From IMG/VR virus record IMGVR_UViG_3300043398_000223, positions 1 to 47,328 of that record: a DNA stretch of 47,328 nucleotides. The stretch is one strand, 5' to 3'. Within the stretch, counting starts at the first letter, position 1. Every line of letters starts with the position of its first letter. Shown here in pieces: positions 112 to 12,728 of this stretch. Below the pieces are notes generated by a model. That model searched no databases. It was not told the origin of the DNA and was given only the letters and a program-made list of their open reading frames with translations. The position numbers were made by a program, and so were the translations under genes. The stretch is from a virus.

Positions 112-410
112 GACGCGGCCTCGAAGTTGCGCACCGCTTCATCGGCGCACGGGATGATCTCGATGACGTTGAGTAGCGTGATGCTGTCGACGGCCTCGCT
201 CACGCGACTTCCGCTACCGACGCCGCGCTTGCTGATCTCGTGCAGCGTGTTGCGGCCCTGCCAACTCCAGACGCGCTTGGCGTCCGCGAGATCCAGCTCC
301 GTCCCGCGTCGCGCTGCCAGTGTGCCGTAGTGCACGCCCGCGCTTTGGGTGCGCACGATCACGCGCTGGGCCTTGCTCTTGCGCGTTGCCTTCTTTGCCT
401 TCGTTGCCAT
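102..410 (-). CDS. DUF6948-like phage protein
   Basis: 102 aa. After a Lys-rich leader (residues 1-15), the protein shows the pattern I associate with the DUF6948 family of phage proteins: QRVIVRTQSAGVHYGTL near residue 15, a WSW motif around residue 48, and IEIIP near the C-terminus. The family function is unknown. The ATG is preceded by AGGAG at good spacing. It is the last well-supported gene of the leftward recombination operon before the hexamer array, 33 nt downstream of the helicase gene. Confidence 0.75.
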   Translation of the reverse strand: MATKAKKATRKSKAQRVIVRTQSAGVHYGTLAARRGTELDLADAKRVWSWQGRNTLHEISKRGVGSGSRVSEAVDSITLLNVIEIIPCADEAVRNFEAASWG

Positions 411-443
411 TCGTCGCTCCTAACTGTGAGTTGTTGCGCCGCC

Positions 444-2093
444 CTAGCGGCCGTACGGTGTCGCCACGCTTGCGGTGTGCTCGCGCGGCTTGTGCCCAAC
501 TACGTCGGCCACTAGACGCCTAACGCTCTCCGAGTTGATATGCCTTGACGCATGAATTACGTCAATAGCTTTGCTAGCAGTCTCGAAGCGAATGTTTGTA
601 GCCGTTACGCCAAACTCGTGAAGCTTCTTGAGTTGCTTGTACGAGGCGAGGCCAAGCTTTCTGCGTTGCGCCACGGAGCGCATCACCTTCACCGCTTGGA
701 TGTGCGTTATCAGCTTGAGCTCAGAATGGTCGAGGCCGATTCGCTTCAGGGCTTCCATCATCTGCGGCGACGGCTTGCGCACGTCCTTTCCGTCAAACTT
801 AGAGCCGCTCTCTTGGCGAAGCCTGAAAGGGTCGAACATCTCGGTGCGTGACTTCACTTTTACGGCAATGGCCGCTTGCTGGGCAGCTCGGAGCTCGGCT
901 CGCGCCTCCTCAAGAGAACGCATCGGGTCTGGGTTCTTTTTCTTCTTCGCAAGTGCGCGCTCGTCGTCGGTGTATTTGCCGCCAAGTACGTCCTCGACGC
1001 TTACGAGGCTGTGTTTCCCGGAGTTGCCAACGAAGTCTAAGATCGTGAGCTGAGGCTTTCGGCTCGAGGCGATGGCGAGCTGCCGGGCAAAGGCGAGATC
1101 GGCCCCACCCATCGCGTCCACTGTACCAGGTAGTACGCGCGTTCCGCGGCCTCCCATTTGCATGTACAGAGAAAGCGATAGGGTTGGGCGTCCCATCACC
1201 ACGAGGTCGATGTCTGGAACATCGAAACCTTCGGTAGCGATCGCGCAGTTGCAGAAAAACTGCACCTTGCCGCTCTTGAAGTCGCCCACAAACTTTTCTC
1301 GAATGGCGGCCGGTGTCTCGCCGTCGACACACACGGCAGATCCTGGGCTCATCTCATTGAGAATGTTCGCCGCGAGTTGGGCCGATTTTACCCCAGGGAA
1401 AAAGAAGATGCCGCGGGCTAGCGGGTACAGATCGACGGTCTTGGAAACCATCGCTCCGGTCGCCTTCACGATCGCATCGTCCAGATCGCCGGCAGCGAGC
1501 TCGCCGTTCTTCGACGACACGTCGGAGATGTCGATTTCGTCCAGGTGCTCACGGTGGCCATGGATGGGAACGAGGTAGCCAGCTTCGATCGCGTCAACGA
1601 TGTCGAGCTGATAGGCCACGCTCTCGAAGATTCGGCCCATGGCCTTCCCGTCACCACGCACCGGGGTAGCCGTCACGCCTAGAAGCTTTGCGGAAGTGAA
1701 GTATTCGATCACCTTCCGGTAGGTCTTGCTGATGTAGTGGTGCGCCTCGTCGGCGATGATCAGAGAGAAGTGCGACGGGTCGAAGCGCTTGAGACGCGAC
1801 TCGCGCGTGAGCGTTTGCACGCTGGCAACCACGAGGCGAGCGGTCATTGCCCGAAAGCCGGCCTGCTCCACGTCGACCCATTCGCCCGTCATTTCCTCGA
1901 GCTTCTCCCGAGCCTGAGAGACGAGCTCCGTTCGGTGAGCAAGCACAAGCACGTTGCCAGGCCACAGCTTCGCTATCTCGGAGAAGCACACCGTCTTCCC
2001 GGTGCCGGTCGGCAGCACGAGGAGCGTAGACTTCCGCGTCTGCAACTCGCGGAACACGGCATCAACGGCCTCTTGCTGGTAGTACCGAAGCAC
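444..2093 (-). CDS. Superfamily 2 DEAD/DEAH-box helicase
   Basis: 549 aa, GTG start, 3 nt after the preceding gene. The SF2 helicase motifs are complete: an N-terminal Q-like LRYYQQEAV, Walker A PTGTGKT (28-34), DEAH (115-118), TATP motif III (141-144), and motif VI QMGGRGTR (312-319) in the second RecA domain. The protein resembles phage and Rad25/UvsW-like DNA helicases that branch-migrate or unwind recombination and replication intermediates. Its place behind the ERF annealase, nuclease and ParB-like genes supports a role in recombination-dependent replication. The C-terminal 130 residues are not assigned. Confidence 0.93.
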   Translation of the reverse strand: MLRYYQQEAVDAVFRELQTRKSTLLVLPTGTGKTVCFSEIAKLWPGNVLVLAHRTELVSQAREKLEEMTGEWVDVEQAGFRAMTARLVVASVQTLTRESRLKRFDPSHFSLIIADEAHHYISKTYRKVIEYFTSAKLLGVTATPVRGDGKAMGRIFESVAYQLDIVDAIEAGYLVPIHGHREHLDEIDISDVSSKNGELAAGDLDDAIVKATGAMVSKTVDLYPLARGIFFFPGVKSAQLAANILNEMSPGSAVCVDGETPAAIREKFVGDFKSGKVQFFCNCAIATEGFDVPDIDLVVMGRPTLSLSLYMQMGGRGTRVLPGTVDAMGGADLAFARQLAIASSRKPQLTILDFVGNSGKHSLVSVEDVLGGKYTDDERALAKKKKNPDPMRSLEEARAELRAAQQAAIAVKVKSRTEMFDPFRLRQESGSKFDGKDVRKPSPQMMEALKRIGLDHSELKLITHIQAVKVMRSVAQRRKLGLASYKQLKKLHEFGVTATNIRFETASKAIDVIHASRHINSESVRRLVADVVGHKPREHTASVATPYGR

Positions 2094-2096
2094 CGA

Positions 2097-2369
2097 TCAG
2101 CTACCACGCAGTCGGCGACGCGCAGCGATGGGCGCAGCCTCAGCATAGATGATGGCTGCTCGTAGACGTTGCAGCGGCGTGTCTCCGATCCTGATTCGAC
2201 CGAAGAGATCGATCGCGTGCTTCGCAACCGGAGCCGAGCTGCAAAGGTGCTTCTGAACGGCAAGCCTCCCGCGTGGACCGGGGATGGCAATGGCGATAGC
2301 GAACCCGTCGCGCCAGACACGCGTGCCCTCTTGGCGAAACTCGGCTTCGATCTTGTGAACCAGATTCAT
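2097..2369 (-). CDS. Small hypothetical protein in recombination operon
   Basis: 90 aa. The ATG at 2369 overlaps the TGA of the ParB-like gene as ATGA, which fixes the start; a longer in-frame reading is only an antisense extension across that gene. The protein is basic with a hydrophobic strand pattern (FAIAIAIPGPRGRLAV) and an Arg-rich C-terminus. No family was recognised. Coupling suggests an accessory role in the nuclease, ParB and helicase unit. Confidence 0.75.
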   Translation of the reverse strand: MNLVHKIEAEFRQEGTRVWRDGFAIAIAIPGPRGRLAVQKHLCSSAPVAKHAIDLFGRIRIGDTPLQRLRAAIIYAEAAPIAARRRLRGS

Positions 2370-3304
2370 CGCGTGACCTCCAGTGATTTGCTTTCCTCGT
2401 GCTCGGCCAGAACCTGCGCAACGCTGCGAAGCTCGTCGCCCACCATTGCGACCGTCGCGTTTTGGAGCTCGCTCGGCACTTCGATCGAGCCGATCCATCC
2501 GAGGTGGTAGCACTTGCCGCACTTCTCTTGGGCGCCTGGCAAGCCCTTGCACCACGCGCAGATCCCGCGCGGCGAGTGTTTGCGTATGATAGACCCAGCA
2601 AGCTCGAGAGAGTCTCGAATGCGACGCAGAACACCGGGCGGATAAAGACCATCCGCTTCGCGCTCGAGCTTCGTCAGCTCCTTCAGCGCTTCGTTGCACC
2701 GCGTGGCCGCTAGATGGCTCCGAAGCTCGATGTTGGCAAACGTCGCCAGGGCGGGGCTGCCGGTGAGCAAGCCGTAATGCTCGAAGCCGGGGGCTTTGCG
2801 CTGAGATGTGGCCCCCTTCTTCACGAAGCTTTCCGCCTTGTAGATGGTCGGCAGCTTGATCCCGAGCGCGTCGGCGGCCATCAAACGAGCTCGCCCTCGG
2901 GCGGTGACGGGGCGACCCACCATGTTGTCGAACGCCTGCGGGGTCCAAGGCATGTACTCCGCCTCGGGCTGGTAGAGGTCCACCAGCTTCGCGATCGCCC
3001 CATACCAGGCATCCTTGTCCTTGCGGTGTCTCGCCTCGAATGCCTTGTCCACGAGCTGCAAGCGCTCGAGCTCATGCTCTTGGCACTCGACGACCTTTGC
3101 CATGATGGCGCGTTGGTTCATGCGGACGGCGGCAGCCACGAGGCGCCGACCCATCACGAGCGTGAGCGGTTTGCCCTTCTCGATGAAGCGGAAGATCGGC
3201 TCCTCGATCGGATCGACCGTGGGGAGGTCTTTCGGATCGATGTCCGAAAGGTCGCCATAGTCGACCCGATCAAGAGGAACCTCAGTCAAGCGGATCACCT
3301 TCAC
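2366..3304 (-). CDS. ParB-like domain protein with zinc ribbon
   Basis: 312 aa from GTG 3304, which overlaps the upstream TGA as GTGA; GTG 3322 is possible but overlaps more. The N-terminus has a ParB/sulfiredoxin-like core with GRRLVAAAV (about 52-60) after a FRFIEKGKPLTLV strand. The middle is helical and could be the HTH part of ParB. Near the C-terminus, CAWC and CGKC (about 249-265) form a rubredoxin-like zinc knuckle. ParB-fold phage proteins can bind or nick DNA. Its position between a recombination nuclease and a helicase suggests a DNA-processing role, but specificity cannot be told. Confidence 0.7.
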   Translation of the reverse strand: MKVIRLTEVPLDRVDYGDLSDIDPKDLPTVDPIEEPIFRFIEKGKPLTLVMGRRLVAAAVRMNQRAIMAKVVECQEHELERLQLVDKAFEARHRKDKDAWYGAIAKLVDLYQPEAEYMPWTPQAFDNMVGRPVTARGRARLMAADALGIKLPTIYKAESFVKKGATSQRKAPGFEHYGLLTGSPALATFANIELRSHLAATRCNEALKELTKLEREADGLYPPGVLRRIRDSLELAGSIIRKHSPRGICAWCKGLPGAQEKCGKCYHLGWIGSIEVPSELQNATVAMVGDELRSVAQVLAEHEESKSLEVTR

Positions 3305-4320
3305 GGGTTGACCCACTTCCACATGTCGTAGGGCGAGCCCTCGCGGATCAGGTTGGTCATACCGGCGGCCTCGAGGTCTTTCACCGACGGACCGCTACGC
3401 TTGCCCTTGCACTCGATGCGCCGATAAGCCTTGCCGCTCACCGAATCGATCAGCGGCTGCCGCGACGCAAACGCCTTGACGCGCTCCTTCAGTAGCTTCC
3501 CGATCTCGGTGTATGCGTCCGCGAGTTGCGCCGCTCGCAAGGCAGCGTCGGCCGTGGTGACCTCGTTGCCTTCCGTAAACTGCGCGAGCTCGGAGCCTGC
3601 GAGAGCTGCCGGGAGCAGATGGTGCTCGCAATGCATGCGCGACCAACACCCCATGCAATGCGCGCCCGTTGCGTGCTCAGTGTTCGTTGCGGCGTGCACG
3701 AGGCGCTGGTAGACGATCAGCCCTTCGGCGGACAGAAGATCGACGTATTGCCCCACGTCCCACGTACCTTCAACGGCTGCCCAGATTGCCGGGACGTACC
3801 CATCGCATTGATGCAGCAGCGCGTAGGCCGTTCCGTAAAAGGCGAGCTGCAACGTCTTTGGGCCGTCCGAGGTCGTGTATTCGGAGCGCTTGATGTCGCC
3901 CACGAATGCGATGCGGATGCCGTTGTCGAGCTCGATCACCTTGGCCATGTCGAGGTGACCGATCGAAAGCGCGTCGGGGTCTTCGTCCTCCTTGGGGATG
4001 TAGCCACCGCCGCAACGATCGAGCGCGATTCGAAGCTCGTGTTCCATGTCCGCATAGCGGAGTTTGACACCCTGCCACTCGAGATCAGCCACGGGGTACC
4101 ATTCCGCGACTTCTTCGAGCTCTTCGGCCGTGAGCATGGCCCGGAGCGTTTCCGAGGGTGCGCCAGATTGGATCGCGTGGAAGTAGGAGCCTTGCAACGC
4201 ACTTCGACCGCTCGCGTTGTAGCGCTTGCTGAGCTGCGGCGAGTATCCGCAAAACTCCGCGATGCCGAGGGAGCTCGCCCGGTTCTGCGCGAGTACCGGC
4301 AGCTTGATCCGCTCGTTCAC
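3301..4320 (-). CDS. PD-(D/E)XK nuclease with Cas4/RecB-like Fe-S cysteines
   Basis: 339 aa, GTG start overlapping the ERF gene stop as GTGA. The nuclease core is visible: E94, GHLDM with D124, GDIK with D142 and K144, and a Q motif LQLAFYG with Q158. Cys24 plus C222-x2-C225-x5-C231 matches the arrangement of one early and three late cysteines that hold a 4Fe-4S cluster in Cas4, AddB and related nucleases. With the adjacent ERF annealase it probably forms a two-component exonuclease/annealase system that resects double-strand ends for strand annealing. Confidence 0.85.
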   Translation of the reverse strand: MNERIKLPVLAQNRASSLGIAEFCGYSPQLSKRYNASGRSALQGSYFHAIQSGAPSETLRAMLTAEELEEVAEWYPVADLEWQGVKLRYADMEHELRIALDRCGGGYIPKEDEDPDALSIGHLDMAKVIELDNGIRIAFVGDIKRSEYTTSDGPKTLQLAFYGTAYALLHQCDGYVPAIWAAVEGTWDVGQYVDLLSAEGLIVYQRLVHAATNTEHATGAHCMGCWSRMHCEHHLLPAALAGSELAQFTEGNEVTTADAALRAAQLADAYTEIGKLLKERVKAFASRQPLIDSVSGKAYRRIECKGKRSGPSVKDLEAAGMTNLIREGSPYDMWKWVNP

Positions 4321-5324
4321 GGCTGCTCACCAGCGACGACTGCGGGCATCGTGGTGCGAAGCTTCTCGAGCCACTTCTCAGCCGTGATGTAGGTCAGATT
4401 TGCCGCGGGAATGCCGCAGGTCTGCATGAGGTGCCCCACGAGCTGAGGCTGCGTCCAACCCAGGCGCCGGCCGTGGTTGCGGATCTCGGAGCTCTGCTCT
4501 GCCGACACCTTCTCGATCTCGACGACTCGAGCCGGCGGGGGCGTGCTCTTGGGCGTCTCTTGGGTCGGAGGCGTGGGCGCCGGTTGAGCGGCTGTCGGCT
4601 GAGGCGCGGGGGACGTAGGCTGTTGCGGGGTAGCGGGGGCCTCAGCTCGAGGCGCCGGAGCGGCCGACGTTGCCGCGGGCTTGGGAGCTCGGCCGGCCGG
4701 CTTGGGCTCGCGTTGCCGCGGGCCAGCGTCGGCGCCCGCCTCTTCGGGGCGCGTGGGCATGTCATCGGCGTCGGCGTCGGCGGCCACGTCGAGCATGGCA
4801 CCCTCGGAGTAGCGACGCCGGTACGTGAGCTGTGCGCCGAAATCCTTGATGTCGTGGCCACGCAGGAACGTGGAACGCGAGATCAACATGCCGCCCGACT
4901 TGTGCGCGAGCACGGTGTACAGCACAGCATCGTTCTGCCGCTCGGAATAGGGCTGAAGGATGGCCAATCCGTGGCGCACGAGGCATGGGCGCGTTGCGGC
5001 GTGGATCGTCTCGAGCGGCGCATAGTCGAATGAGTAGTTACCCTTTGCGCTCTGGATCTTGACCGTTCGAGTCTTCGGGATGGCCGGAAACTCGCCTTGT
5101 GCGAGACAGAATGCGGCCATGAGCTCGACAATCTGGCCCGGATGCCCCACGAACGACACGTCCGCATCGGGCATCGCGAACGTGGGCAGGTCGGGCACGG
5201 CGCCCGAAGTGAAGCCGTGGCGGTTCCAGGGGTTACCGCCGGCAGGCTCGGGCGGAGGCGTGGGATCGTGGAGCTCGACGGCTTCCGTTGCGATCTCTTC
5301 GTCAGTCATGATCTCGTTTGCCAT
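4317..5324 (-). CDS. erf: ERF-family single-strand annealing protein
   Basis: 335 aa. Residues about 65-190 carry the ERF signature: YAPLETIHAATRPCLVRHGL, then HKSGG, then GAQLTYRRRYSEGAMLDVAA ending in an acidic DADADD stretch. ERF (P22 type) anneals complementary single strands and promotes recombination and circularisation. A Pro/Ala/Gln-rich linker (190-270) leads to a separate C-terminal helical domain, unusually long for an SSAP. It is the first gene of the leftward operon, behind a promoter-like element at 5391-5362, and its partner nuclease follows with a GTGA overlap. Confidence 0.9.
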   Translation of the reverse strand: MANEIMTDEEIATEAVELHDPTPPPEPAGGNPWNRHGFTSGAVPDLPTFAMPDADVSFVGHPGQIVELMAAFCLAQGEFPAIPKTRTVKIQSAKGNYSFDYAPLETIHAATRPCLVRHGLAILQPYSERQNDAVLYTVLAHKSGGMLISRSTFLRGHDIKDFGAQLTYRRRYSEGAMLDVAADADADDMPTRPEEAGADAGPRQREPKPAGRAPKPAATSAAPAPRAEAPATPQQPTSPAPQPTAAQPAPTPPTQETPKSTPPPARVVEIEKVSAEQSSEIRNHGRRLGWTQPQLVGHLMQTCGIPAANLTYITAEKWLEKLRTTMPAVVAGEQP

Positions 5325-5361
5325 GTGGTCCCTTTCGTGCCGCGTGCGGCGTAGGTCTTTC

Positions 5362-5391
5362 GTTGTACCAATAGAGGTTATCTTACGTCAA
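5362..5391 (-). promoter_or_regulatory. Promoter-like TTGACGTAAGA element upstream of erf operon
   Basis: Reading leftward: TTGACG (5391-5386), an 18-nt spacer beginning TAAGA, then TACAAC (5367-5362). It lies 37 nt before the erf start. The same extended -35 recurs at 10453, 13048 and 13914. Confidence 0.65.
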
Positions 5392-5425
5392 TGACTTTTG
5401 CGAAAAACTGGCGTAACTTGCACCC

Positions 5426-5623
5426 ATGGCAAAGCAGAATGCATGGGTGCCCAAGGCTGCGATCGAGCAACGGCTATTGACTCAGATCGAGCGTGGCCAC
5501 GCCGCGGCGGCGAAGCGACAGCCCGATCTCAGTTTCAGCGCGTGGCAACGTCGGGCCTTACTCGAGCGTGCGAGCAAGGATCTGGGCGTTCCGGTTTCGA
5601 AGCTGCTAGCGGCGAAGGGCTAG
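5426..5623 (+). CDS. Small putative ribbon-helix-helix regulator
   Basis: 65 aa, basic, the only rightward gene among leftward ones here. Residues 33-60 contain a short strand-like LSFSAWQRRALLERASKDLGV segment. This resembles the strand and first helix of Arc/CopG-type DNA-binding proteins (S-x-S-x-W followed by a helix), but the match is by eye only. It is divergent from erf, with about 100 bp between them holding the TTGACGTAAGA element, so it is a candidate repressor of that promoter. Its stop shares a CTAG palindrome with the convergent gene. No strong Shine-Dalgarno is visible. Confidence 0.6.
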   Translation: MAKQNAWVPKAAIEQRLLTQIERGHAAAAKRQPDLSFSAWQRRALLERASKDLGVPVSKLLAAKG

Positions 5624-5802
5624 TCCTGCTCTGCGTCTAGCATCGCGTTCGCGATGCCTTCGGCGGTCGCGCACGGTTCGCACCATCGAGCACCGTCGTA
5701 GGTGCGCAGATCGTCTAGTTCGAAACGCTCGCCACACATGCAGCAGCGCGCGTGCGTCTCGACAGGATCGGGCGTTTCGTCACAGTCGCGGGCTCGGAAC
5801 AT
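5620..5802 (-). CDS. Small zinc-ribbon protein
   Basis: 60 aa from ATG 5802, chosen because GAGG sits 6 nt upstream and because the neighbouring gene ends at 5810; the 5832 ATG would overlap that gene in another frame. CCMCG and CEPC about 20 residues apart form a plausible four-Cys zinc ribbon in the middle. The N-terminus is acidic. It is the last gene of the 8.0-5.6 kb leftward operon. The function is unknown. Confidence 0.7.
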   Translation of the reverse strand: MFRARDCDETPDPVETHARCCMCGERFELDDLRTYDGARWCEPCATAEGIANAMLDAEQD

Positions 5803-5809
5803 AGCACCC

Positions 5810-5971
5810 TCACTTCTGCTCTGTGTAGCCATCGAAATACACGCCAGCCTTGCGCGTGTGCGGATCCTTGCAGTGGGCCTGCGCCATCGCGAGTGTTTGG
5901 TTCTTGCGAATGGTGCGACGACGCCCCGACAAGTAGAACCGGACGATCTTGTAGAGTGGTTCCGGGTTCAT
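5810..5971 (-). CDS. Small phage protein (YKIVRFY/QAHC type)
   Basis: 53 aa. The start ATG overlaps the upstream TGA as ATGA. The sequence has the pattern LYKIVRFYLSGRRRTI, AMAQAHCKDPHTRKAG, then a terminal DGYTEQK. I recognise this layout from many short uncharacterised phage and bacterial proteins. The function is unknown; the conserved AQAHC-x-DP and DGY segments suggest a small folded unit. Confidence 0.8.
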   Translation of the reverse strand: MNPEPLYKIVRFYLSGRRRTIRKNQTLAMAQAHCKDPHTRKAGVYFDGYTEQK

Positions 5972-6321
5972 TCGGGGATCTCCACGGCGCCGAGTTTGGC
6001 GATCTCACGAATGAGACGATCGAGGCTCCCGCAGTCCAGACGCCCCATGTCGAAATTGAGATACGCCAGCGCAGCCTGGAACATGTCGAGCGCGTGCTCG
6101 TGGAAGTATCCGTCCTCGCCGATCTTCACGTCGTCGTCGTGCGTGCCTGAGGCGTCCACGAGGGCTGCGAGCATGCGCACCATGTTCACCATAGCCCTTT
6201 CGCCCTTGCTCACTGGCACAACAAAGGCTTGTGCGTGCACGCTAGTCCAGTCGGTGTGGTTCCTGATAAGTTGGTTGGCGGTCATGTGTTGATCTACCAG
6301 TTGGCTTGCGGTCGGATTCAT
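5968..6321 (-). CDS. Hypothetical protein
   Basis: 117 aa, joined to both neighbours by ATGA overlaps (6318-6321 and 5968-5971). The N-terminal 30 residues are polar. The rest is helical, with an acidic DDDVKIGEDG loop and a C-terminal helix pattern RLIREIAKLGAVEIPE. No family was recognised. Confidence 0.75.
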   Translation of the reverse strand: MNPTASQLVDQHMTANQLIRNHTDWTSVHAQAFVVPVSKGERAMVNMVRMLAALVDASGTHDDDVKIGEDGYFHEHALDMFQAALAYLNFDMGRLDCGSLDRLIREIAKLGAVEIPE

Positions 6322-6572
6322 GGTTCGTACTCCGTTGATAGTTTGGTTAGCTCATACTCGAAAACGACTTCACGAGCGTTCGGGGAGCACCCTAGAACGA
6401 CGTGATAGCGACGGTCCTCGTGCGTGTACATGAGAGCCTCAAGACACGCTTCTTGCGGCACAGGTTTTCCCCATACCTTGCCTTCGCAGTGGCCGAATGC
6501 GTCGCACTGAAAGGCAACCTGGCGAACGTCCGAGGGGCCTCCGAATAGGAGGATTCCGAGTAGGGTGATCAT
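6318..6572 (-). CDS. Small, possibly exported Cys-containing protein
   Basis: 84 aa. A short hydrophobic N-terminus (ITLLGILLFGG) may be a signal or anchor, but it lacks the usual basic start. FQCDAFGHC, EACLEA and LGC then give four cysteines that could form disulfides if exported. ATGA overlap with the next gene. The function is unknown. Confidence 0.7.
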   Translation of the reverse strand: MITLLGILLFGGPSDVRQVAFQCDAFGHCEGKVWGKPVPQEACLEALMYTHEDRRYHVVLGCSPNAREVVFEYELTKLSTEYEP

Positions 6573-6757
6573 GTTGCGCTCCTAGCAGCCTTGCAGCGCG
6601 CTACGCATGATGCGCAGTGCATGGTCCTTGGCTCGCCACAACCCACGCACGAATCCCAACCGAGGATGCGTGCCACATCGGCTTTGATTTCGGCCTGCGT
6701 GGGTTCGCGGCCTAGCTTGTCGCGCAGTGCTTCATAGATGGTGGGTTTGCGGGTCAC
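6569..6757 (-). CDS. Small zinc-finger-like protein
   Basis: 62 aa from GTG 6757, which overlaps the upstream TGA as GTGA; the longer in-frame reading is antisense extension. The N-terminal helices (IYEALRDKLGREPTQAEIK) are followed by CVGC and CASC, a four-Cys knuckle typical of small zinc fingers. It could bind nucleic acid, but no family was recognised. Confidence 0.75.
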   Translation of the reverse strand: MTRKPTIYEALRDKLGREPTQAEIKADVARILGWDSCVGCGEPRTMHCASCVARCKAARSAT

Positions 6758-6948
6758 GTTGCAATCCTTTCCAAGGTTTCGCGAGCCTTGCGCGCTGCAT
6801 CCGCGAGATCGCAGCATTCGAGGCACGCCTCCGGGTCTTCGTAGTCCCAAGCCATACACACGGCGGCATGCGCACGCTTGGCTTGGATGGCGCGATCGAG
6901 TGCACGTTGTGCGTCGGACAGGCGCAGGCCGTAGGGTTTGGTGTGCAT
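6754..6948 (-). CDS. Small helical hypothetical protein
   Basis: 64 aa from ATG 6948, taken because the previous gene ends at 6953; the in-frame ATG 6996 would overlap that gene by 44 nt. Two helices flank a CLECC cluster around residue 45. GTGA overlap with the next gene. The function is unknown. Confidence 0.65.
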   Translation of the reverse strand: MHTKPYGLRLSDAQRALDRAIQAKRAHAAVCMAWDYEDPEACLECCDLADAARKARETLERIAT

Positions 6949-6952
6949 GATC

Positions 6953-7330
6953 TTATCCGTTGTCCGCGGGGTGCCAGTCGTGCGCGGGCGAGGCATTTTC
7001 GCAGTGCTTGCAACACATACTCAGGCACAGTTCGCCGCACCCGCGGCACGTGAGATCGGGCGCGTAGACAAGATCCCCAAGCCCAAACCAGTATCGCCCG
7101 ATGTAGTGACACAAGCTGACGGCGTTATCCGGAGTGAGTCCCGTGCGACACTCGATGTGGACTTCCCAGGGTCCATTGGATGGGCGAAACAGCCAGCCAT
7201 CTGGCAAGCTCTTAGTGCCTTTAAGGCGCTTGGCTCCGAATGCTTGCAAGGCAGGGCCATTGACGCGCACAAGATACAGACCTTGCGTCTGAGGGTGAGC
7301 GGCAATGTTAAATGGCTTGTGGGGATTCAT
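6953..7330 (-). CDS. Hypothetical protein with C-terminal Cys/His cluster
   Basis: 125 aa. ATG 7330 overlaps the upstream TGA as ATGA; longer in-frame readings are extensions through other genes. The N-terminal part looks like a small alpha/beta fold. The C-terminus has CRGCGELC, CCKHC and two late histidines, which could bind one or two zinc ions. No family was recognised. Confidence 0.75.
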   Translation of the reverse strand: MNPHKPFNIAAHPQTQGLYLVRVNGPALQAFGAKRLKGTKSLPDGWLFRPSNGPWEVHIECRTGLTPDNAVSLCHYIGRYWFGLGDLVYAPDLTCRGCGELCLSMCCKHCENASPAHDWHPADNG

Positions 7331-8864: not shown

Positions 8865-8902
8865 CGACGACTCCATGCGATGAAGCGTAGCGTCTCGGTC
8901 AT
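8861..8902 (-). CDS. 13-aa micro-ORF (MTETLRFIAWSRR)
   Basis: Its ATG overlaps the methyltransferase stop as ATGA, and its own TGA overlaps the next gene start as ATGA. A peptide this short may matter only as a coupling relay that carries ribosomes from the methyltransferase to the basic 50-aa gene. Confidence 0.45.
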   Translation of the reverse strand: MTETLRFIAWSRR

Positions 8903-9801
8903 CCCATCATCCTCGCTATCCCCATGAGCACATGCCCGACCACCTCGGCGCAGTCGGGGACTACGGCGTTGCCCAGCGCCTTCAGGGCAAGTCGGTCCAG
9001 TCCAACGGAAAACCCTGGAGCCAGCTTACAAAACGCCGGTTGAGCCTCAGCCGGCACTCGCCCCCATGCGAGCAGGTCGTCGGGAGCGGGCGGCCACTTC
9101 GGCAGGTCGCATCCGTCAGGCTCGTCCCCTCGTTCGAGGCGTTGCCATCCAGACCCCGAGCTCCACGCGACCCACTGCGCTTGGAGTCGCCCGCCGTCGC
9201 GGTTGGCCACAGCTTCGCCCAGCTCTCGAGTGATGGGTTCTTCGCTGTCGCATACGTCTCGCGACCATCCATCGGATCGCCATTGTTGCTCGAGCCGAAC
9301 CTGCTCGCCGTTGGCGTCGGATACTCGCCACGCGACCACGAAGATCCTCGCCCTCTTGTGGGGCGCTCCCACGTCCGCAGCTTGTAGATCGAACCAGAGC
9401 GCATCGTACCCGCGATCGGCAAGGTCTTGCAGGACCCGATCGAGTCCGCGACGCGCGAGCGCAAGGACGTTTTCGATGACGACGAAGCGCGGTCGCAGCT
9501 CGCCAATGAGCCAGGCGAAGTTTGCCCAAAGGCCGCTTCGAGCACCCTCGAGGCCAGCTCCTTTGCCAGCGAGTGAGATGTCCTGGCATGGGAATCCTCC
9601 GCAGAGGACATCGACGGGCTCAAGCTCCCAGGGGTACACGTCTCGGACATCGGAGAACCTCCGCACACTGGGCCAATGCTTCTCAAGGACGCTGCGGCAG
9701 AACGGATCGGCCTCTACTTGCCATGCGACTTCACCGACGCCAGCGAGCTCGAGCCCACGTTCTAGACCGCCGATGCCGCTGAAGAGAGAGCCGATCTTCA
9801 C
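8899..9801 (-). CDS. C5-cytosine DNA methyltransferase
   Basis: 300 aa, GTG start overlapping the upstream stop as GTGA. All key motifs are present: FSGIGG (7-12, SAM binding), GGFPCQDIS with catalytic Cys72, VIENV (108-112), the QxRxR-like HKRARIF (149-154), and ALGNAVVP near residue 285. The target-recognition region (about 165-270) gives no readable specificity. No cognate restriction endonuclease is seen nearby. The likely role is to modify phage DNA against host restriction. Confidence 0.95.
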   Translation of the reverse strand: MKIGSLFSGIGGLERGLELAGVGEVAWQVEADPFCRSVLEKHWPSVRRFSDVRDVYPWELEPVDVLCGGFPCQDISLAGKGAGLEGARSGLWANFAWLIGELRPRFVVIENVLALARRGLDRVLQDLADRGYDALWFDLQAADVGAPHKRARIFVVAWRVSDANGEQVRLEQQWRSDGWSRDVCDSEEPITRELGEAVANRDGGRLQAQWVAWSSGSGWQRLERGDEPDGCDLPKWPPAPDDLLAWGRVPAEAQPAFCKLAPGFSVGLDRLALKALGNAVVPDCAEVVGHVLMGIARMMG

Positions 9802-10006: not shown

Positions 10007-10100
10007 TGGAACGAGCTGGAGTCGAACCAGCAACCGCGCCGACTTCCCAGGCCTCCGGGGCCTGTACTCATCGGTGCTCTACCTGTTGAGCTATCGTCCC
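10007..10100 (-). tRNA. tRNA-like gene A with 26-nt anticodon loop
   Basis: Acceptor GGGACGA pairs with TCGTTCC (one G-T). D-arm GCTC/GAGC has an AACAGGTA loop; T-arm GCTGG/CCAGC has loop TTCGACT. The anticodon stem CCGAT (10074-10070)/GTCGG (10043-10039) is sound but encloses 26 nt instead of 7. Inside, CAGGCC (10064-10059) and GGCCTG (10053-10048) form a 6-bp hairpin. The last seven loop bases, CTGGGAA, would make a classic loop with anticodon GGG (Pro) if 19 nt were removed; the hairpin tip would instead show CGG. Variable loop is 7 nt. The 3' end is ACCG, not CCA. Amino-acid identity is undecided. Confidence 0.65.
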
Positions 10101-10152
10101 AAACCCCCGTCTCTCCGGGGCGTCAAGCCTCTTTCATGTGGGCTTTCACTGG

Positions 10153-10223
10153 CGGGCCGGTGAGGACTTGAACCCCAATCACCCCGATTTGGAATCGGGC
10201 GCTCGACATTGAGCTACCTGCCC
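10153..10223 (-). tRNA. tRNA-Trp (anticodon CCA)
   Basis: Cloverleaf: acceptor GGGCAGG/CCGGCCC (one A-G mismatch), D-stem GCTC/GAGC with a short six-base loop AATGTC lacking the usual GG, anticodon arm CCCGA-TTCCAAA-TCGGG with anticodon CCA, variable GTGAT, and T-arm TGGGG-TTCAAGT-CCTCA. Discriminator is G and CCA is encoded (10152-10150). It reads UGG. It lies between two abnormal tRNA-like genes and downstream of the TGA-interrupted adenine methyltransferase. Confidence 0.88.
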
Positions 10224-10332: not shown

Positions 10333-10349
10333 ATGAGCCTCGGATTCGG

Positions 10350-10439
10350 TGGAACAGGGTGGGTTCGAACCACCATCTCCAGCTTCACGCGGCCCCCGGG
10401 CCTGATCTGCTGGTATACTTCCATTTGTACTACCGTCCC
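10350..10439 (-). tRNA. tRNA-like gene B with 25-nt anticodon loop
   Basis: Acceptor GGGACGG/CTGTTCC (two G-T), D-stem GTAC/GTAT with loop AAATGGAA, T-arm GGTGG-TTCGAAC-CCACC, variable AGAT. The anticodon stem CCAGC (10413-10409)/GCTGG (10383-10379) is perfect but encloses 25 nt, including GGCC-CGGG-GGCC (10402-10391). Roughly two thirds of the loop positions match tRNA-like A. The last seven loop bases, GCGTGAA, would give anticodon GTG with C33 instead of U33. The 3' end is ACCG. The decoding capacity is unclear. Confidence 0.6.
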
Positions 10440-12236: not shown

Positions 12237-12728
12237 TCACTCCCTCCAAATGATCATCGGATGGTCTTCGCGAGGCTCGACGTGCTCGCCAGTCACAATC
12301 AGACAGCAGTCACGTGGATAGGTGTAAGTCTTATCCAAGAACGCAAACTGCTTCAGGAAATACGTTCGACGCTCTGCTGACTTGCGGTAGCTCCACCACC
12401 ACTTCCGTCGAGCGCAAACAGGCACGAGCGCAATCTGACGCCAGGCTACGAAGAGCTGCCTATCGGACTGCGCGAACCACGAAGGCAGATCGTTGTATGG
12501 CGGGTTGAAGTACGTCCGATCGTGTCACGGCAGTTCGAGGCCGTTGTCGCCTTCATCGAAGCGATAGGCGAGAGTCGACCGAACAATCGAACCATGGGCG
12601 CCGCACGGGTCCAGCGTGATGCCTTCCGGCCACATGCTGTCAATGATTTCGATGACAGATGGCGGAGTGAGGACCGTTTGATCGGCGTCACCCTTCGACG
12701 CGTTCGCTGTGCCGAGTGCGGCGCCCAT
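12237..12728 (-). pseudogene. Phage N6-adenine methyltransferase with in-frame TGA
   Basis: One frame, 163 sense codons plus TGA at 12527-12525 (codon 68). Before it are TVLTPPSVIEIIDSMWP and the SAM-site-like ITLDPCGAHG. Directly after it are HDRTYFNPPYNDLPSWF, with catalytic NPPY (75-78), and a normal family C-terminus. Phage Dam-type enzymes usually have Trp in the GLELP-[W] position, so the TGA replaces one TGG codon. The stop context is TGA-C, which is known to be leaky. The N-part alone (67 aa) lacks the catalytic motif. Options are a nonsense mutation, a sequencing error or programmed readthrough; conservation of the downstream half favours a recent or tolerated stop. Confidence 0.8.

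Follow-up and report, generated by a model that had tools for sequence, protein, structure and literature searches.

The analyzed viral DNA (hereafter the window, the whole stretch of 47,328 nucleotides) contains a gene for a Dam-type adenine methyltransferase with a single TGA at the codon where the family carries tryptophan. The question raised by this locus is whether the TGA is read as an amino acid or has inactivated the gene.

Organization of the interrupted gene

The gene is located on the minus strand, a detail absent from the original prediction, its frame extending from the opening ATG at position 12728 to position 12237. It comprises 67 codons, the TGA at 12527–12525 (codon 68), 95 further codons, and the terminal TGA at 12239–12237; a protein of 163 aa would result if codon 68 were read through. 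The frame reads MGAALGT...LDPCGAHG...NGLELP[TGA 12527-12525]HDRTYFNPPYNDLPSW...PREDHPMIIWRE[TGA] and is divided as follows:

12528–12728, minus strand: N-terminal (SAM-binding) half of Dam, codons 1–67, in frame and coding-like, with the T-P and L-D-P-C family motifs
12525–12527, minus strand: in-frame TGA, codon 68 (the invariant Trp of the family), next base C, from frame reading and alignment
12240–12524, minus strand: C-terminal half, codons 69–163, including the catalytic motif NPPY, then TGA at 12237–12239, by homology to phage Dams

Neither a second stop codon nor a frameshift was found in the downstream half, which retained the family motifs and was homologous to phage Dams up to the C-terminus. 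The coding score of the Dam frame was +8.1 in the upstream half (−9 to −27 in the other five frames) and −1.0 in the downstream half (−17 to −31 in the other five frames). Frame reading, coding score, and alignment thus bear out the original prediction of a SAM-binding half, one TGA in an otherwise intact frame, and an NPPY half with a normal C-terminus. The TGA-C context that it had pointed out was also confirmed; C likewise follows the stop in 7 of the 48 TGA-terminated genes of the window. Internal initiation of the downstream half was considered and rejected: the first in-frame ATG, GTG, or TTG lies after NPPY, and such a product would be devoid of the catalytic motif.

Family membership and the tryptophan of codon 68

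The readthrough protein matched the phrog_111 DNA methyltransferase family with an E-value of 1.2e-9 and PF05869 (Dam) with an E-value of 4e-4, both matches spanning the stop, in agreement with the Dam-type identity proposed earlier. The Pfam score of 20.5 bits is under the curated cut-off of 28.1; thus, the gene is a divergent member of PF05869. Halomonas phage QHHSV-1 Dam (PF05869; PHROG 111) has the same order of motifs—T-P, L-D-P-C, G-L-x3-W-x2-R, NPPY, and the C-terminal P-x-x-LI-x-G—and ~32% identity with the window protein across 70% of the length. In the record of this phage, the annotated start of the DNA methylase (L006, 948–1453) is too late, the open frame reaching upstream with the conserved N-terminal Dam half.

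The Trp expected at codon 68 was present in 9/9 aligned diverse phage Dam homologues, which had been picked without regard to this codon; therefore, the TGA of the window stands in for TGG. The same Trp was invariant in a 43-row alignment, the rows of which were selected by a pattern that itself contains Trp. Among the alignment-invariant residues D40, L64, W68, N75, P76, and P77, the window gene has all but W68, represented in the DNA by TGA, and it is in this codon that it differs from phage Dams of PF05869/PHROG 111. Judging by its sequence, the gene appears to be a broken member of the family and not an outsider.

Modeling of the readthrough protein with AlphaFold2 gave a structure of middling quality (pLDDT of 72, pTM of 0.66). 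Its best neighbors in the PDB, found with Foldseek, were adenine N6 methyltransferases (KsgA/DIMT1, RlmJ) with weak E-values of 0.04–0.15. The predicted structure is consistent with the methyltransferase family and adds nothing on the question of recoding.

We failed to find close relatives of the window Dam gene by a peptide-pattern search. For the phage itself, the terminase gave only fragments of 49–53% identity ending before the Dam region, and the major head protein gave no close relatives.

Genetic code, readthrough signals, and tRNA genes

TGA was the stop codon of 48 of the 66 other genes predicted in the window; therefore, the code of this phage is standard, and the exclusion of general recoding in the original prediction holds. 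None of these other predicted genes had a coding extension past its stop other than the next gene. No RNA structure was evident at the codon-68 stop: a 96-nt segment spanning the TGA and its downstream flank folded no better than shuffled sequences (z of −0.18).

The following genes of the window are relevant to decoding and methylation:

10150–10223, minus strand: tRNA-Trp (CCA), with a bit score of 53 (cut-off, 29), an anticodon stem of 5 bp, and a D-loop of 6 nt
8899–9801, minus strand: intact second DNA methyltransferase gene of the same gene cluster, with a PCQ motif, cytosine-5 type by motifs (phrog_363 DNA methyltransferase, E-value of 2e-73)

The tRNA-Trp with a short D-loop noticed earlier is real: it is encoded ~2 kb downstream of the Dam gene on the same strand, and its D-loop is one nucleotide shorter than in the Rfam model. 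UGA reading by tRNA-Trp is reported to be promoted by A9C, G24A, and a 4-bp anticodon stem (PMC13092985). None of these features, nor a UCA anticodon, was present in the phage tRNA-Trp, which differs from the UGA-reading tRNA-Trp of the Hirsh type or with a 4-bp anticodon stem in having an ordinary anticodon arm (CCCGA/TCGGG, 5 bp), the CCA anticodon, and A9 and G24 (numbered by hand). Its sequence is that of a presumably ordinary decoder. Two tRNA-like genes, located on the minus strand of the window at 10007–10100 and 10348–10439, scored 46 and 45 bits, respectively, above the Rfam cut-off; a GC-rich hairpin lies within the anticodon loop, and hence no clear anticodon could be read.

The same stop codon in other phages

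A set of 2.9 million viral contigs was scanned with the degenerate pattern G-L-x3-TGA-x2-R-x3-N-P-P-[YF]. Three of the seven matches were real Dam genes with a single TGA and an otherwise intact frame: IMG/VR 2574180082_000007 and 2571042052_000002, which are isolate prophages 99.7% alike over 7.8 kb with relatives in Bacteroides phages, and the unrelated 3300005253_000139. All three have the TGA at the same Trp codon as the window gene. They come from phages unrelated to that of the window and differ in having A after the stop, so that the 3′ base is not conserved (C, A, A in the three lineages); in addition, no tRNA-Trp was found in the contigs of these phages. In both groups, TGA is an ordinary stop elsewhere.

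In the case of the Bacteroides-type allele, TGG was present in all of the nearest relatives (L046–L055, 81–89% identity), indicating that TGA is derived there. At the same time, this allele is common to two isolate genomes and must therefore have persisted for some time, which counts against plain nonsense. Private changes on its branch in the half after the stop were 13 synonymous and 4 nonsynonymous, which fits recent loss and residual function alike. As a selection test, this comparison was set aside: the downstream half looks purifying, yet the stop could not be dated from it.

The same pattern with TAG at codon 68 gave no matches in the viral contigs. Several other candidates were rejected. 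Three matches with TGA or TAA at the Trp located five codons downstream were all due to chance, as were the 22 matches to the codon-68 TGA pattern in 85,000 species genomes, none of which was a real Dam. Of the split-gene annotations in Bacteroides phages, some were overlapping neighbors and others G-tract frameshifts.

Background frequency of broken Dam genes

As a control, the pattern with TGG at codon 68 was used; it matched at least 120 viral contigs, all with real Dam genes. Among the 120 matches listed, 5 (~4%) were broken other than at codon 68. One of them (L135, match at 1304–1351, minus strand) carried, in an otherwise intact frame, a single TGA at another conserved Trp located 17 codons past the invariant one; L090, L153, and L177 were apparently broken by frameshifts, and L180 by several stops. 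Among approximately 60 Dams in cellular genomes, one copy was decayed, with TGA replacing Trp at a third position, and another was frameshifted; the TAA within the match G974 proved to be the normal terminal stop.

Since 2 of 15 known relatives were recaptured among the 120 matches listed, the collection was estimated to hold ~900 such Dams (binomial range of ~300–7000). At ~0.1–0.2% per Trp codon, one or two codon-68 TGAs are expected among ~900 genes, an order-of-magnitude figure based on small counts, and two lineages were seen. The recurrence of the codon-68 TGA is thus accounted for by background nonsense.

All Trp-to-stop changes in the surveys, the window excluded, were to TGA (4: two at codon 68, L135, and G668) and none to TAG. 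This ratio would arise with a probability of 1/16 under equal mutation and is not significant; it hints that UGA may be tolerated because tRNA-Trp reads it at a basal level.

A G tract in Dam genes of the LoVEphage family

Outside the window, the same invariant Trp codon is the starting point of a G run (AATTGGGGGG...CGAATTTGG) in six records of the LoVEphage family, from Bacteroides and Phocaeicola (L063–L067, i.e., MW660583, PQ571302, OY725593, PQ571265, and OY731433, plus OY731444; tract start at locus position 773). The tract lengths were 6, 7, 8, 8, 9, and 9, the length in the second record with eight G being taken from its 100% match. Two of the records, with 7 and 9 G, are antibiotic-induced phages. 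The near-identical genes differ in length in step with the tract, and the Dam frame is kept only by a tract of 8, the other lengths leading to truncation at codons 63–76. This pattern of sequences suggests that the phage methyltransferase is likely switched on and off by slipped-strand mispairing (phase variation), although slippage of the polymerase or during sequencing of the homopolymer may also have produced the variation. The main text of the LoVEphage description paper contains no mention of methyltransferases or phase variation, and no direct report of phase-variable phage methyltransferases was found in the open-access literature. A nine-G tract was also observed at the same Trp codon of a further Dam gene (L056, 303–311), where it is in frame.

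Origin of the in-frame stop codon

We consider it probable that the window gene was inactivated by a single nonsense mutation, TGG to TGA, at the invariant Trp codon 68. Translation would then end after 67 residues, ahead of the NPPY catalytic motif, and no active enzyme would be expected apart from what basal readthrough of UGA in the host might yield. The remainder of the gene still looks intact, which points to a recent change; both the loss of function and the recency of the stop are what we infer. In the matched surveys, such breaks were an ordinary background event; thus, this is most likely a recently disabled gene rather than a case of a new reading of the code. The plain pseudogene, named in the original prediction as an alternative, is therefore a better reading than readthrough. 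The arguments against the nonsense mutation are the lack of a second lesion, the family motifs retained in the downstream half, and the fact that every surveyed Trp-to-stop change was to TGA, the downstream Trp having given none. The exclusive occurrence of TGA leans slightly, and not significantly, towards tolerance through readthrough. Alternatively, the true genome may have TGG, and the contig as deposited may be in error at this base. This explanation is rather unlikely. In its favor, it concerns one base of one contig, for which no near-identical second contig was found, in an otherwise intact gene; against it, the sequence shows no sign of poor quality, and the surrounding gene set is uninterrupted.

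Functional readthrough, in which the tRNA-Trp of the host or phage would read UGA-C at a few percent and supply a little full-length methyltransferase, sufficient or even selected for, is in our opinion unlikely, although low-level readthrough of this TGA is possible. The stop lies exactly at the invariant Trp, where reading by a near-cognate tRNA-Trp would restore the correct amino acid, and the phage encodes a tRNA-Trp. Readthrough of UGA is known in E. coli, where it was ascribed to the near-cognate tRNAs for Trp and Cys (PMC5373646). Also in favor of readthrough are the two unrelated phages that carry a TGA at this codon (one of them represented by two isolates), the lack of TAG at codon 68, and the substitutions downstream of the stop in the Bacteroides-type lineage, which look purifying. 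However, the recurrence equals the nonsense background of the Dam family, in which TGA was found at other Trp codons as well. The stop is unconserved, TGG being present in the relatives of the Bacteroides-type allele, and so is its 3′ base; the branch substitution counts cannot tell function from recency. The tRNA-Trp of the window phage is ordinary, no tRNA-Trp was found in the contigs of the other two phages, no structure accompanies the stop, and no other gene of the window appears to be read through. The local readthrough suggested by the original prediction is thus not supported.

Programmed UGA readthrough by tRNA-Trp occurs in phage Qbeta. The likeness to the window gene consists in a UGA where Trp would go in; in contrast, the window stop has neither conservation among relatives nor evidence of an extended product. 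A broader variant, to which we give little credence, holds that phage Dams tolerate UGA at Trp codons as a leaky state of low expression: near-cognate tRNA-Trp would insert the correct residue, methylation would be low, and here the level would be raised by the phage's own tRNA-Trp with its unusual D-loop. Selenocysteine insertion or genome-wide UGA reassignment is highly improbable, since nothing besides the in-frame TGA itself speaks for it, whereas TGA ends most genes of the window, no notable hairpin follows the stop, and the homologues have Trp, not Cys, at this position.

Should readthrough prove true, the gene would provide a rare example, for a DNA phage, of an epigenetic enzyme whose dose is set by leaky reading of UGA. 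The G tract of the LoVEphage family is a better lead than the TGA of the window. The window gene itself serves as a caution: a stop at an invariant Trp resembles recoding, yet ~4% of the surveyed Dam genes among the 120 matches listed are broken, and TGA in place of Trp is found at other Trp codons of the family too.
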